This document shows positions 6,420 through 35,871 of a stretch of DNA of 35,947 nucleotides, piece after piece. The DNA is taken from contig JAGXIM010000002.1 of the NCBI GenBank assembly GCA_024635665.1, positions 1 to 35,947 of the forward strand, given 5' to 3'. This stretch comes from Salinimicrobium sp. (GTDB taxonomy: Bacteria; Bacteroidota; Bacteroidia; Flavobacteriales; Flavobacteriaceae). Under the pieces are notes generated by a model that was not told the DNA's origin, did not search any database, and worked only from the letters and a program-made list of their open reading frames with translations. Both the position numbers and the translations under genes were made by a program. Position 1 is the stretch's first letter. Each line of letters opens with the position of its first letter.

Positions 6420-6460
6420 ATAACAAAACGGCCACAGGAATCCTGTGGCCGTTTTGTTAT
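6420..6460. terminator. Bidirectional terminator between tsaB and the MscS gene
   Basis: Perfect 20-bp inverted repeat around a single central base (left arm 6420-6439, right arm 6441-6460). The stem contains ACGGCCACAGGA and is flanked by AACAAAA / TTTTGTT, so both strands end in a U-rich run. It sits between convergent genes and should serve both. Confidence 0.93.
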
Positions 6461-12060: not shown

Positions 12061-12091
12061 AAAAACTGCGCATCAAGGATGCGCAGTTTTT
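12061..12091. terminator. Terminator after the ompH pair
   Basis: AAAAACTGCGCATC (12061-12074), loop AAG, GATGCGCAGTTTTT (12078-12091): a 14-bp perfect stem with U-rich ends on both strands. It sits 25 nt beyond the ompH stop and 13 nt before the murI start. Confidence 0.92.
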
Positions 12092-23819: not shown

Positions 23820-23848
23820 AAAACGCCGGATATATTTCCGGCGTTTTT
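23820..23848 (+). terminator. Terminator of the FadL/SGNH operon
   Basis: AAAACGCCGGA (23820-23830) and TCCGGCGTTTT (23837-23847) with a 6-nt loop, followed by T. It starts 23 nt after the SGNH gene stop. Confidence 0.92.
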
Positions 23849-27758: not shown

Positions 27759-27790
27759 AAAGCCATTCTGGTAACGGAATGGCTTTTTTT
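27759..27790 (+). terminator. Terminator of clpX
   Basis: AAAGCCATTC (27759-27768) pairs with GAATGGCTTT (27777-27786) with an 8-nt loop, followed by further T residues. It starts 23 nt after the clpX stop. Confidence 0.93.
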
Positions 27791-29222: not shown

Positions 29223-30863
29223 TTACATCATTCCGGGCATTCCGCCGCCCATTCCTTGTGGCATTCCGCCGCCACCGGAGTTTTCTTCTTTAATATCCAC
29301 TAAAGAGCATTCGGTAGTAAGGATCATTCCAGCGACTGAAGCAGCATTTTCAAGGGCTACCCTTGTTACTTTCTTAGGATCGATAATTCCTGCTTTCATC
29401 ATGTCGACGAAAGTATTGGTTTTGGCATCATAACCGTAGTTGCCTTTGCCTTCAAGCACTTTGTTGATCACAACCGAACCTTCGCCACCGGCGTTTTCAA
29501 CGATTGTTCTCAATGGGCTTTCAATGGCACGGCTTACGATCTTGATTCCGGTAGCTTCATCTGGATTGGCAGCTTTAAGGCTTTCAAGTACAGCTTTTGC
29601 ACGTACAAGCGCTACGCCACCTCCGGCAACGATTCCTTCTTCCACAGCCGCGCGGGTTGCGTGAAGGGCATCATCCACACGGTCTTTCTTCTCTTTCATT
29701 TCAACTTCAGAAGCTGCGCCCACGTAAAGTACGGCAACCCCGCCAGCCAATTTGGCCAAACGTTCCTGAAGTTTTTCCTTATCATAATCAGAAGTTGTGG
29801 TCTCGATTTGGGATTTGATCTGGTTCACACGGGCTTTGATAGCTTCGTTGTCACCAGCACCGTTTACCACAGTTGTATTATCCTTGTCAATAGCTACTTT
29901 TTCAGCAGTACCAAGTTGATCGATGGTTGCGTTTTCAAGGGTGAAACCTCTTTCTTCAGAAATCACAGTACCGCCAGTAAGGACAGCGATGTCTTCCAAC
30001 ATTGCTTTTCTTCGGTCACCAAATCCTGGCGCCTTCACAGCAGCGATTTTTAGTGAACCTCTTAATTTGTTCACAACTAAAGTAGCAAGGGCTTCGCCGT
30101 CAACATCTTCAGCAATGATCAAAAGTGGCTTTCCGCTCTGGGCGACAGGTTCCAATACTGGAAGCAGGTCTTTCATGGCAGATATCTTCTTGTCATAGAT
30201 AAGGATGTAAGGGTCCTCAAGATCTGCAGTCATTTTCTCGCTGTTGGTCACGAAGTAAGGAGAAAGATATCCGCGGTCAAACTGCATTCCTTCCACAACA
30301 TCCACGTAAGTATCAGTTCCTTTGGCTTCTTCAACAGTAATAACGCCTTCTTTTCCTACTTTTTGGAAAGCTTCAGCAATCAATTCACCAATATGCTCAT
30401 CATTGTTGGAGGAAATAGCAGCTACCTGCTTGATTTTTTCTGAAGAATCGCCTACCTGTTGAGCTTGTTCCTTAAGGTGGGCAACCAAAGCTTGTACTGC
30501 TTTGTCAATACCTCTCTTAAGATCCATTGGGTTTGCACCGGCAGCAACATTTTTAAGGCCTTCTTTTACGATTGCCTGTGCAAGTACGGTTGCTGTGGTT
30601 GTACCGTCACCGGCGATATCATTGGTTTTGGAAGCAACTTCCTTCACCATTTGCGCGCCCATATTTTCCAGCGCATCTTCCAATTCTATTTCTTTTGCAA
30701 CGGTCACCCCATCTTTAGTGACCACAGGGGCACCAAAAGATTTGTTGATGATCACGTTACGCCCTTTTGGGCCTAGAGTTACTTTTACAGCGTTTGCCAG
30801 TGCATCCACACCGCGCTTGATCCCGTCACGGGCTTCAATGTCGTATCTAATTTCTTTAGCCAT
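29223..30863 (-). CDS. groEL: Chaperonin GroEL (Hsp60)
   Basis: A 546-residue ATP-dependent chaperonin that forms the double-ring folding chamber in the cytosol. The N-terminal [20 protein letters not shown] and the nucleotide loop [11 protein letters not shown], with the catalytic Asp region following, are intact. The apical domain is complete, and the signature [18 protein letters not shown] is exact. The C-terminal tail is the usual flexible GGM repeat (ending GGGMPGMM). Length is standard. groES is 108 nt upstream, an unusually long gap for this pair, and the gap holds two hairpins. The terminator follows 89 nt beyond the stop, after a tandem repeat. Confidence 0.98.
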
Positions 30864-30971: not shown

Positions 30972-31247
30972 TTAAACTACAGCAAGTATATCGTCCTCCC
31001 TCATTATCAGGTATTCTGTGCCCTCAAGTTTGAGTTCGGTACCCGAATATTTTCCATAAAGTACGGTATCACCAACTTTAACAGTCATTTCGTGATCTTT
31101 TTTTCCGCCACCTACAGCTACTACTTTACCTTTTTGTGGTTTTTCTTTAGCCGTTTCGGGAATGTAAATACCTGATGCAGTCTGAGTCTCAGCTGCTACA
31201 GGCTCAACAAGTACTCTGTCTGAAAGAGGTTTAATGTTTAGTGCCAT
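30972..31247 (-). CDS. groES: Co-chaperonin GroES (Hsp10)
   Basis: A 91-residue co-chaperonin; its heptameric ring caps GroEL. It shows the start [20 protein letters not shown], the GroEL-binding mobile loop [20 protein letters not shown], the roof region and the C-terminal [13 protein letters not shown]. Length is normal. It is the first gene of the groES-groEL transcript, preceded by the secG terminator and a 24-bp inverted repeat. A TAATTTTG lies 4 nt before the ATG, but that is too close to act as a normal -7 element, so the promoter is not located. Confidence 0.98.
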
Positions 31248-31313
31248 TTTACAAAATTATTTTAGTTAATGAATTCTTTGATTGAACAAGCAGTAAGTCG
31301 AAAATTGTGCCAC

Positions 31314-31337
31314 TTGATAAATGCTGACATTTATCAA
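31314..31337. promoter_or_regulatory. 24-bp inverted repeat upstream of groES, putative operator
   Basis: TTGATAAATG (31314-31323), spacer CTGA, CATTTATCAA (31328-31337): perfect 10-bp arms. It lies 67-90 bp before the groES ATG and just past the secG terminator. It does not match the CIRCE element of HrcA. Confidence 0.5.
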
Positions 31338-31370
31338 AAAAAAATGCCAGCTTGTCATAAGCTGGCATTT
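31336..31370 (-). terminator. Terminator of the miaB-to-secG operon
   Basis: AAATGCCAGCTT (31342-31353), loop GTCAT, AAGCTGGCATTT (31359-31370). On the minus strand the perfect 12-bp stem runs into nine U residues. It starts 24 nt beyond the secG stop. Confidence 0.93.
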
Positions 31371-31393: not shown

Positions 31394-31732
31394 CTAGTCC
31401 TGTGTACCCGGATTTTGTACCGGAGCTTGAATTGGCGCAGGAACGTTGCTTTCAACTTCGGGTTCCCCGCCCATTATTTTAGATTCTCCAATGCTGTTCC
31501 CGTCCATAATAGTAACGTTGGAAAGCAGGATAAGCACCAAAAGAAGCGTAGCCAGTGCCCAGGTACTTTTGTCAAGGAAGTCTGAAGTTTTTTGGACACC
31601 ACCAACCTGGTTGGCACCTCCGCCAAAGGCAGAAGATAATCCGCCACCTTTAGGATTTTGCACCATAATTACTACTACGAGTAAAAATGCCACGATAATG
31701 ATTAATGCTAAAAAGATTGTAAACGTGCTCAT
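31394..31732 (-). CDS. secG: Preprotein translocase subunit SecG
   Basis: A 112-residue inner-membrane subunit of the SecYEG channel. Two membrane helices (about residues 4-23 and 57-75) flank the conserved cytosolic loop VQNPKGGGLSSAFGGGANQV, which is diagnostic. The C-terminal tail after the second helix is longer than in E. coli and rich in Pro, Gln, Val and Glu (PAPIQAPVQNP), as is usual in this phylum. Its start overlaps the stop of the upstream TPR-like gene by one base. It ends the operon, with a strong terminator behind it. Confidence 0.95.
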   Translation of the reverse strand: MSTFTIFLALIIIVAFLLVVVIMVQNPKGGGLSSAFGGGANQVGGVQKTSDFLDKSTWALATLLLVLILLSNVTIMDGNSIGESKIMGGEPEVESNVPAPIQAPVQNPGTQD

Positions 31733-33109: not shown

Positions 33110-34363
33110 TTACAGGTCATATTGTTTGATCTTTCGATAGAGGGTGCGCTCGCTAATCCCGAGTTCATCGGCGGCGGCTTTGCGTTTTCCATTGTGACGC
33201 TCCAGGGATTTCTTGATGAGTTCCAGTTCTTTGTCATGCAACGAAAGGGTTTCTTCCTCCTCAATTTCTTCTGCAAAGTAATATTTATCCTGTTTTTCGG
33301 GTGAATTTTGCTGCGGAAGTTGTAACACTTCCAACTGTTCATCGGTTAATTCTTCAGAATCTATGTCCTCTTCATCGTTTCCATAGATCTTTTGGATAAG
33401 GCTTTCGTTTTTTTCCTTGACGTTTTTGTGTCCATCATTATCCATCAATTCGAGGGTCAGTTTTTTGAGGTCATGGAGGTCACTTTTCATATCAAAAAGG
33501 ACTTTGTACAAAATTTCCCGTTCATTGCTGAAGTCGTTTTCCTTCTTTTTCTCCTCAATCACCGCTGGCAGATTGCTGCCAATGCCCGGGAGGTAACTTT
33601 TCAACAATTGCCCATCAATATTTCTTTCCTGTTCCAGGACAGAAATCTGTTCGGCGATATTTCTCAACTGCCGTACATTGCCGTTCCAGCGGTACTTTTG
33701 CAAAAGTGCAACGGCATCATCTTCCAGTCGCACAGTTGGCATTTTGTACTTCATGGCAAAATCTGAAGCGAATTTCCTGAACAATAAATGAATGTCTTCT
33801 TTTCGCTCCCGTAACGGCGGAAGGTGAATTTCCACAGTACTTAACCTGTAGTAAAGATCTTCGCGGAATTTCTCTTTTTTGATAGCTTCGAACATTTCCA
33901 GGTTTGTGGCGGCAACAATGCGCACATTGGTCTTTTGCACTTTTGAAGAACCCACTTTAATGAATTCCCCGTTTTCCAGAACCCGCAACAAGCGCACCTG
34001 AGTGGTGAGAGGTAATTCCCCAACTTCATCCAGAAAAATGGTACCGCCATCGGCTACTTCAAAGTAACCATTCCTGGATTGGGAAGCACCTGTAAAAGCG
34101 CCTTTTTCATGCCCAAACAGTTCACTGTCTATAGTCCCCTCAGGAATAGCCCCGCAGTTCACAGCGATGTATTTTCCATGTTTGCGATGGGAGAGTGCAT
34201 GAATGATCTTGGGAATGCTCTCTTTTCCCACCCCGCTTTCCCCTGTAACTAGTACAGAGATATCTGTGGGCGCCACTTGAATGGCTTTTTCAACCGCCCG
34301 GTTTAATTTTTCGTCATTCCCCAGAATTCCGAAACGCTGTTTTATAGCCTGTACACTTTCCAT
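33110..34363 (-). CDS. Sigma-54-type AAA+ transcription activator, Fis-type HTH
   Basis: A 417-residue bacterial enhancer-binding protein without an N-terminal receiver or sensory domain: the AAA+ core begins almost at once. Walker A is GESGVGKE (41-48), the sigma-54-contacting loop is GAFTGA (88-93), Walker B is GGTIFLDEVGEL, and the arginine-finger region LYYRLSTVEIHLPPLRER is intact. A long, acidic, low-complexity linker (about 260-375) separates the core from a C-terminal Fis-type HTH (NGKRKAAADELGISERTLYR). It should activate RNA polymerase with RpoN. It lies between miaB and lptE in one transcript; its targets, possibly including genes nearby, are unknown. Confidence 0.93.
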   Translation of the reverse strand: MESVQAIKQRFGILGNDEKLNRAVEKAIQVAPTDISVLVTGESGVGKESIPKIIHALSHRKHGKYIAVNCGAIPEGTIDSELFGHEKGAFTGASQSRNGYFEVADGGTIFLDEVGELPLTTQVRLLRVLENGEFIKVGSSKVQKTNVRIVAATNLEMFEAIKKEKFREDLYYRLSTVEIHLPPLRERKEDIHLLFRKFASDFAMKYKMPTVRLEDDAVALLQKYRWNGNVRQLRNIAEQISVLEQERNIDGQLLKSYLPGIGSNLPAVIEEKKKENDFSNEREILYKVLFDMKSDLHDLKKLTLELMDNDGHKNVKEKNESLIQKIYGNDEEDIDSEELTDEQLEVLQLPQQNSPEKQDKYYFAEEIEEEETLSLHDKELELIKKSLERHNGKRKAAADELGISERTLYRKIKQYDL

Positions 34364-34425: not shown

Positions 34426-35871
34426 TTAATTATTCTCGCTGTAACCAACTGCCTCCCCTTTCAAAGTGGCGCTGGTGCAATCATTAATTTTTACATTCAC
34501 AAAATCACCCACTTCGTAATTATCCTTCGGAAAAACGGCTACCGTGTTTTGGGTAGTTCTTCCACTCCAGTGGGCATTCGATTTTTTTGATTCTTTCTCG
34601 ATCAAAACCTCGACAGTTTTTCCAACGAACTGCTGAGTCCGGTAAAGGCTATGATCCCGTTGAAGGCTAACTATTTCTGTAAGTCTTCTTTTCTTTACTT
34701 CTTCGGGCACATCGTCCTCGAGTTTCCGGGCAGCCATTGTTCCCGGTCTTTCAGAATATGCGAACATAAATCCGTAATCATACTTCACATATTCCATGAG
34801 AGATAAAGTGTCCTGGTGATCCTCTTCAGTTTCAGTAGGGAATCCGGTGATCATATCCTGGGAGATGGCAACATCGGGAATCATTCTTTTGATGTTATCT
34901 ATCAAGGTGAAATATTCTTCGCGGGTGTGCAGGCGGTTCATTTCTTTTAAGATGCGGTCACTTCCGCTTTGTACCGGGAGGTGGATATACTTGCAAATAT
35001 TTGGGTATTTAGCCATCGCTTCGATAACGTCCAGCGTCATATCCTGCGGATTGGAAGTAGAGAAGCGAATTCTCATTTTTGGATGGGCTTCAGCAACCAG
35101 CCGAAGCAACGCAGCAAAATTGGTAGCTGTTGCTTTCTGCATTTCAGAAGCGGTTTTGAAGTTCTTTTTAAGGCCGCCGCCATACCATAAATAGCTATCC
35201 ACATTTTGCCCCAAAAGTGTGATTTCTTTAAAACCTTTTTCCGCGAGGTCGTTCACTTCTTCCAGGATGCTTTGTGGGTCTCGGCTTCGCTCCCTTCCAC
35301 GGGTGAACGGCACCACACAAAATGTGCACATATTGTCGCAGCCACGCGTGATGGAAACAAAGGCAGAAACCCCATTGCTTTGCAGGCGCACCGGCGAAAT
35401 GTCTCCATAAGTTTCATCTTTTGAAAGGATCACATTCACTGCATTCCTACCTTCCTCCACTTCGTTGATAAGATTTGGCAGGTCTTTATATGCATCGGGC
35501 CCCACTACGAGGTCCACGATTTTCTCCTCCTCAAGGAATTGTGCTTTAAGGCGTTCGGCCATACAACCTAACACGCCGACTTTCATTTTTGGATTTATCT
35601 TTTTTACAGCATTGTATTTTTCAAGCCTTTTGCGGATGGTTTGTTCGGCCTTGTCCCGAATTGAGCAGGTGTTAATAAGGACCAGGTCGGCCTCTTCCAG
35701 GTTTTGGGTAGTGCTAAAACCTTCTTTTGCAAGAATAGAAGCCACAATTTCGCTATCACTAAAATTCATTTGGCAACCATAGCTCTCGATCATCAGCTTA
35801 CGGCCGTTTTTGACCTTCGGCTCCAAAACCAAAAAACTTCCCTGTTGTTTTTCGTCTATTATCTTCTCCAT
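34426..35871 (-). CDS. miaB: tRNA-2-methylthio-N6-dimethylallyladenosine synthase
   Basis: A 481-residue radical-SAM methylthiotransferase that adds the methylthio group to i6A37 of tRNA. The N-terminal cluster-binding domain carries Cys33 (YGCQMNF), Cys69 ([10 protein letters not shown]) and Cys103 (LGCMAERLK). The radical-SAM motif is C178-x3-C182-x2-C185 in [20 protein letters not shown], which distinguishes MiaB from RimO and MtaB in combination with [11 protein letters not shown]-terminal TRAM domain (about 410-475) binds tRNA. Length is standard. It is the first gene of the operon running to secG, with a clear promoter upstream. Confidence 0.97.

Follow-up and report, generated by a model that had tools for sequence, protein, structure and literature searches.

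A putative sigma-54 promoter with upstream TGWCA boxes at the groESL locus of Salinimicrobium sp., and its candidate activator

The secG-groES interval and its inverted repeat

The stretch of DNA analysed here (hereafter the window: 35,947 nucleotides of Salinimicrobium sp.) carries the gene order miaB, candidate activator, lptE-like, TPR, secG, groES and groEL, so that the activator gene is the fourth one upstream of groES. The names lptE and TPR are presumptive, being taken from recognition and from the annotation of F. psychrophilum. The following features can be differentiated:

29223..30863, minus: groEL (which we take it to be from its translation)
30972..31247, minus: groES
near 31286: predicted groESL transcription start
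31299..31312, minus: putative sigma-54 -24/-12 promoter of groESL, TGGCACAATTTTCG (assigned by conservation and by the mapped F. psychrophilum homologue, as given in the accessible part of PMC9723704)
31314..31337, no strand: perfect inverted repeat, probably a lineage-specific coincidence overlying a conserved core; its left arm is on the TTGATAAA side
31324..31329, minus: TGTCAG, promoter-proximal candidate activator box (spacing conserved in most of 81 Flavobacteriales loci)
31342..31370, minus: Rho-independent terminator of the secG transcript
31353..31357, minus: TGACA, a candidate for a second activator box, located in the loop of that terminator and 45 nt upstream of the -24 element
31394..31732, minus: secG
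33110..34363, minus: sigma-54 enhancer-binding protein (AAA+ with GAFTGA, Fis-type HTH), proposed activator of chaperone promoters
34426..35871, minus: miaB, whose position beside the activator gene is conserved, reduced genomes included

The 24-bp repeat, located between the secG terminator and groES, has perfect 10-bp arms, TTGATAAATG (31314-31323) and CATTTATCAA (31328-31337), around a 4-nt spacer (CTGA), exactly as the first-pass annotation had described it. It is unusual for the base composition, since a first-order Markov null gives 0.3 perfect repeats per window (arms of at least 10 bp, loop of 3-8 nt); six were observed. The other five are GC-rich, terminator-like hairpins. Strong, perfect hairpins at 6420-6460, 12061-12091, 23820-23847 and 27759-27786 are GC-rich, have A/T flanks and resemble ordinary terminators.

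CIRCE, a repressor operator whose 9-bp arms (TTAGCACTC) are spaced by N9, belongs to the HrcA/CIRCE system, which controls groESL in many bacteria and probably also in one Bacteroidia genus of the present survey. The annotation had set the repeat apart from CIRCE, rightly so: it does not match TTAGCACTC-N9-GAGTGCTAA, and CIRCE is absent from the window and from most of the groES upstream sequences examined. Also well founded was its expectation of a groESL control element at this spot, where a conserved sigma-54 module is found, and its attention to the TGTCA core, which is kept as TGTCAG-N11-TGGCAY...G across 80 named Flavobacteriales loci. As for the statement that other repeats of the window share the TGTCA/TGACA core, it holds for the loop of the adjacent secG terminator and for no other; in the window as a whole, TGTCA and TGACA occur 36 and 20 times (about 40 expected each) and, hence, are not enriched.

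The proposal that the repeat is itself a conserved operator fared worse. Actually, the alignment of the secG-groES gap, a check suggested with the annotation, gave the outcome named beforehand as contrary to that proposal: the arms are lost in all ten same-genus sequences, while the terminator is kept and the core TGTCAGCATTTTTCAAGTGGCACAATTTTCGTC is nearly unchanged. In those genomes the left arm varies (GCTAAATG, GATTTTTG, GGCTTTTG), and among the Flavobacteriales sequences compared perfect arms of at least 10 bp around TGTCAG occur in the window and in one other locus (L016) only. The assembled genome (2.16 Mb, 76% complete) contains no further copy of the repeat, even with 3 mismatches allowed, and the string that the annotation proposed to search for upstream of other stress genes is absent elsewhere in it. 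A second structural role in the terminator region, the annotation's alternative, finds no support for the repeat. A dedicated, lineage-particular groESL operator or RNA hairpin would be in the right place, upstream of groES, and perfect arms are unlikely by chance; nevertheless, loss within the genus and the single genomic copy make such a role very improbable. Regarding the hairpin, the repeat lies upstream of the predicted transcription start and, therefore, is absent from the groES RNA. From the comparison of relatives, the perfect repeat is best seen as a one-genome coincidence atop a deeply conserved control site, and its arms would have no role in groESL control.

The sigma-54 promoter module upstream of groES

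Under the repeat, on the minus strand, lies a module composed of TGTCAG followed by TGGCAC-AATTTTCG, which corresponds to a sigma-54 -24/-12 promoter for groESL. The sigma-54 -24/-12 element is GG-N10-G, with an invariant GG at -25/-24, and TGGCAY-N7-G fits it. The layout was compared in the 160 nt upstream of groES in 80 named Flavobacteriales loci, which have in common (i) the secG terminator; (ii) TGTCAG; and (iii) 11 nt further on, TGGCAYAATTTCTG. The spacing TGTCAG-N11-TGGCAY is found in 64 of 81 Flavobacteriales sequences (74 of 81 if N10-12 is allowed), and a -24/-12 element stands upstream of groES in all 81 loci. A wider survey of 159 Bacteroidia genomes yielded 109 groES upstream sequences, 104 of them with a sigma-54 promoter. 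The GG at -25/-24 (TGGCAC, 31307-31312 in the window) is present in 81/81 and 104/104 selected sites, counts which are partly built in because GG belonged to the search pattern. The -12 G, 10 nt from the GG, is present in the window, in 79/81 Flavobacteriales sites and in 103/104 Bacteroidia sites, although in the latter set it weighted the choice of site. The -12 element of the window is TTTTCGA (TCGA) and not TTGC; grpE promoters have TTTTGC. The pattern TGGCAYAATTTYTG with one mismatch was also tried for searching, and rejected, as its matches were mostly due to chance. The gene for sigma-54 itself, rpoN, is present in the genome of the window (G000:C74, E 6e-53) and was found in 151 of the 159 Bacteroidia genomes.

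The promoter class has been described before. In the accessible part of the F. psychrophilum study, mapping by 5'-end RNA-seq assigns a sigma-54 motif to the starts of groES, dnaK, grpE, htpG, clpB and lon, and induction is reported on blood agar and in other conditions (PMC9723704). The SM4 (sigma-54) promoters of that account are of the same -24/-12 class at groESL, dnaK, grpE-dnaJ, htpG, clpB and lon (PMC9723704). Likewise, a 2025 PSSM survey, as far as its accessible text goes, places GroES, GroEL, GrpE, DnaJ and DnaK among the predicted sigma-54 targets of Flavobacteriia, Bacteroidia and Cytophagia (PMC12316311). Control of groESL by sigma-54 is thus already known, and the window is one more case.

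Classical heat-shock control, by HrcA/CIRCE or by a sigma-32-type promoter, is barely credible at this locus. In its favour, one Bacteroidia genus (g69; G117 and G077, loci L195 and L223) carries at groES a CIRCE with one mismatch in place of the sigma-54 element, accounting for two of the five upstream sequences that lack the element. Against it, the window contains no CIRCE and no recognised sigma-32-like element, and a conserved sigma-54 motif stands there instead, so that the sequence already contradicts it. Judging from these upstream sequences, heat-shock control seems to have been switched in g69, a case within the Bacteroidia.

Helically phased TGWCA boxes

Measured from T to T, TGTCAG (31324-31329) in the window stands 17 nt upstream of the -24 element. 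Over the 130 nt that precede each of the 104 Bacteroidia promoters, 257 TGTCA/TGACA boxes were counted in all, compared to 26 +/- 5 in shuffles; at least one box occurs within 110 nt in 104/104 promoters, and at least two in 83/104. The distances from box to -24 element cluster near 17, 27, 38, 48, 58, 69, 79 and 88 nt, in bands (17-18, 25-28, 35-39, 45-49, 55-60, 65-70, 75-81, 87-91 and 97-100) that are almost empty in between. With -24 sites picked independently of the boxes, the vector strength is R = 0.66 at a period of 10.3 bp, against a null of 0.10 +/- 0.03 (maximum 0.27; 5000 random per-sequence shifts). When the set was reduced to 46 sequences with less than 65% identity (a stricter cut-off, below 55%, left 3 sequences), R remained 0.66 versus a null maximum of 0.37. 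Control words of the same length, with 4-35 occurrences, are too rare for a strong control; one of them, AATTG/CAATT, gave R = 0.53 (n=35), probably due to its adjoining the boxes. Such phasing is the mark of a protein whose binding is restricted to one side of the helix with respect to the polymerase.

Among the 71 Flavobacteriales with a recognised terminator, 51 have a TGWCA box in the terminator loop, compared to 1.4 expected from shuffled loops and, in consequence, the secG terminator may serve as an activator site as well. The loop box may read TGTCA or TGACA and may point either way, as though inversion of the hairpin loop were tolerated but loss of the box were not.

The boxes recur at other chaperone genes. 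The first-pass annotation had suggested stress-gene promoters as a test, and although its own string failed there, the combination of TGWCA boxes and a -24/-12 element is found at dnaK in relatives and at grpE both here and in relatives. The dnaK promoters of relatives read ATGACATCCTGTCATATAATTTCTGCTGGCATAATGATTGACTT, with a flavobacterial box that is the palindrome ATGACATCCTGTCAT (ATGACA-N3-TGTCAT), and the grpE promoters of relatives and of the genome of the window read GTGACATTTTGACAT...TTGGCAGTACTTTTGCC. At both genes, the offset of the proximal box from the -24 element is 17 bp, as at groES, and that of its partner is 25 nt, both counted from the start of the box. As a genome-wide regulon string, TGTCAG-N9-12-TGGCAY was discarded: it has two matches only, both upstream of groES, which indicates that box distance differs by gene. 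The second of these matches is on a probable contaminant contig.

The candidate activator and chaperone control in Bacteroidia

Sigma-54 cannot work without an activator, and no regulator of the heat-shock response in Bacteroidota is, to our knowledge, firmly established. The candidate encoded at 33110-34363 has 417 residues, scores 224 bits for PF00158 and 48.9 bits for HTH_8, contains GAFTGA and lacks an N-terminal sensor domain. The same architecture, in which a GAFTGA-containing AAA+ domain is joined to a Fis-type HTH without any N-terminal sensor domain, is found in proteins of the type of PspF, the phage-shock activator; however, the candidate falls far below the PspF equivalog cut-off (271.6 vs 443.55 bits) and, unlike them, has a partly conserved linker (YKvLFDMKsD..DLKK) between AAA+ and HTH. 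This linker motif (residues 281-306, EReilYKvLFDMKsDlhDLKK) matched no Pfam family, and it is possibly a regulatory contact. Since the protein has no sensor domain, its control via a partner protein or via chaperone titration is plausible.

A homologue is present in 159/159 Bacteroidia genomes, in a few of which the best match is so weak that it could be a paralogue. In 75 of the 80 named loci, the gene stands no more than 3.5 kb upstream of groES. Of the 89 best-scoring genomes for which both positions are given, 64 have activator and groES on one contig and within about 5 kb of each other (coordinate lists, judged by eye). In F. psychrophilum, a 'probable sigma-54-dependent regulator' (THC0290_0733) is four loci away from groES (THC0290_0729), an arrangement shared by the window (PMC9723704). 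A second activator-TPR-secG-groES-groEL cluster (G000:C24:1-5872; L178, L083), with GroES 88% and activator 84% identical, lies on a short contig, which is probably a contaminating one because same-genus genomes show one cluster.

Reduced genomes provide the strongest argument for joint function, namely the co-retention of rpoN, activator and site in tiny genomes. The Flavobacteriales genome G039 (345-kb, 22.8% GC) has rpoN and one enhancer-binding protein, 57.8% identical to that of the window, whose gene lies between miaB and a secG-like reading frame, next to groES; upstream of groES it reads ATGACATTATGTCATTTTTTAATAATTTTTAATAAAATGGCATATTTTTGG, in which ATGACATTATGTCAT, a perfect ATGACA-N3-TGTCAT palindrome, is accompanied by TGGCAT. 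Similarly, G063 (490-kb, 21.8% GC) has rpoN and one enhancer-binding protein, 48.9% identical to that of the window and adjoining miaB, as well as sigma-54-like sites before groES, dnaK and lon, with two TGTCA boxes at groES.

A different protein could occupy the boxes while the sigma-54 promoter stands, for instance an OmpR-type regulator such as RprY or a receiver-domain enhancer-binding protein, and this we consider unlikely. In P. gingivalis, gel shifts show binding of RprY to promoter fragments of groES, dnaK and clpB, and the protein affects chaperone expression (PMC3646045), and the genome of the window encodes a second enhancer-binding protein, of the receiver-domain type (C51), the only other full one apart from the contaminant-contig copy. 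Nevertheless, a Trans_reg_C search of ten genomes found no such protein in four (G063, G039, G136 and G056), the two reduced genomes included, which led us to reject RprY as the box-binder; boxes are seen in those of the four that were inspected (G063, G056 and G039), and the one enhancer-binding-protein match in G063 and in G039 is orthologous to that of the window.

Binding of the boxes and activation by the 33110-34363 protein is what we infer from co-retention, linkage and phasing. Several points count against this reading: (i) the box is centred near -45, nearer the promoter than is usual for enhancer-binding proteins; (ii) the boxes could serve another protein, TGNCA being a short, self-complementary word; (iii) the genome of the window also encodes C51; (iv) genus g69 keeps the activator gene although its groES has CIRCE, hence the activator would have other targets or a residual use there; and (v) the -12 element of the window departs from TTGC. 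The site is probably a groESL sigma-54 promoter activated through TGWCA by the cluster-encoded enhancer-binding protein, with the arms of the repeat idle. RNA polymerase with sigma-54 would sit at TGGCAC...CG (31299-31312, minus), alone unable to open the DNA. The enhancer-binding protein would bind TGWCA half-sites (full site ATGACA-N3-TGTCAT), in the window TGTCAG at 31324-31329 and probably also the terminator-loop TGACA, on the same helical face, and would use ATP to open the groESL promoter. Transcription of dnaK, grpE-dnaJ and lon would likewise be driven by this protein.

In the accessible portion of the F. psychrophilum account, neither the activator of the SM4 chaperone promoters nor an upstream activator site is named, and three predicted activators are said to be possibly in charge of different clusters (PMC9723704). 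The PSSM survey, in its accessible text, deals with the promoter matrix only, with neither activator nor helically phased upstream box (PMC12316311). The literature searched, a scope outside which most subscription journals and preprints fell, yielded no activator for Bacteroidota chaperone genes, nor this activator assignment, site consensus or helical grammar. The promoter class being known, it is these proposals (the activator assignment, the TGWCA site consensus and the helical spacing) that would be new.

Across Bacteroidia, one activator probably switches groES-groEL through sigma-54, as far as genome comparison can tell. More tentatively, and a little short of an even chance, this one enhancer-binding protein may be the ancestral Bacteroidia activator of heat-shock and proteostasis genes, acting via phased TGACA-N3-TGTCA sites (including that of the secG terminator loop), co-retained with rpoN in endosymbiont-sized genomes and possibly kept inactive by a chaperone through which it would sense folding stress. 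Now that a gene can be named for the candidate activator, and a consensus and a helical spacing rule given for the boxes, the question becomes directly testable. That rpoN and one activator persist in a 345-kb genome suggests that, among the functions of this regulatory system, chaperone control is one of the last to be lost.
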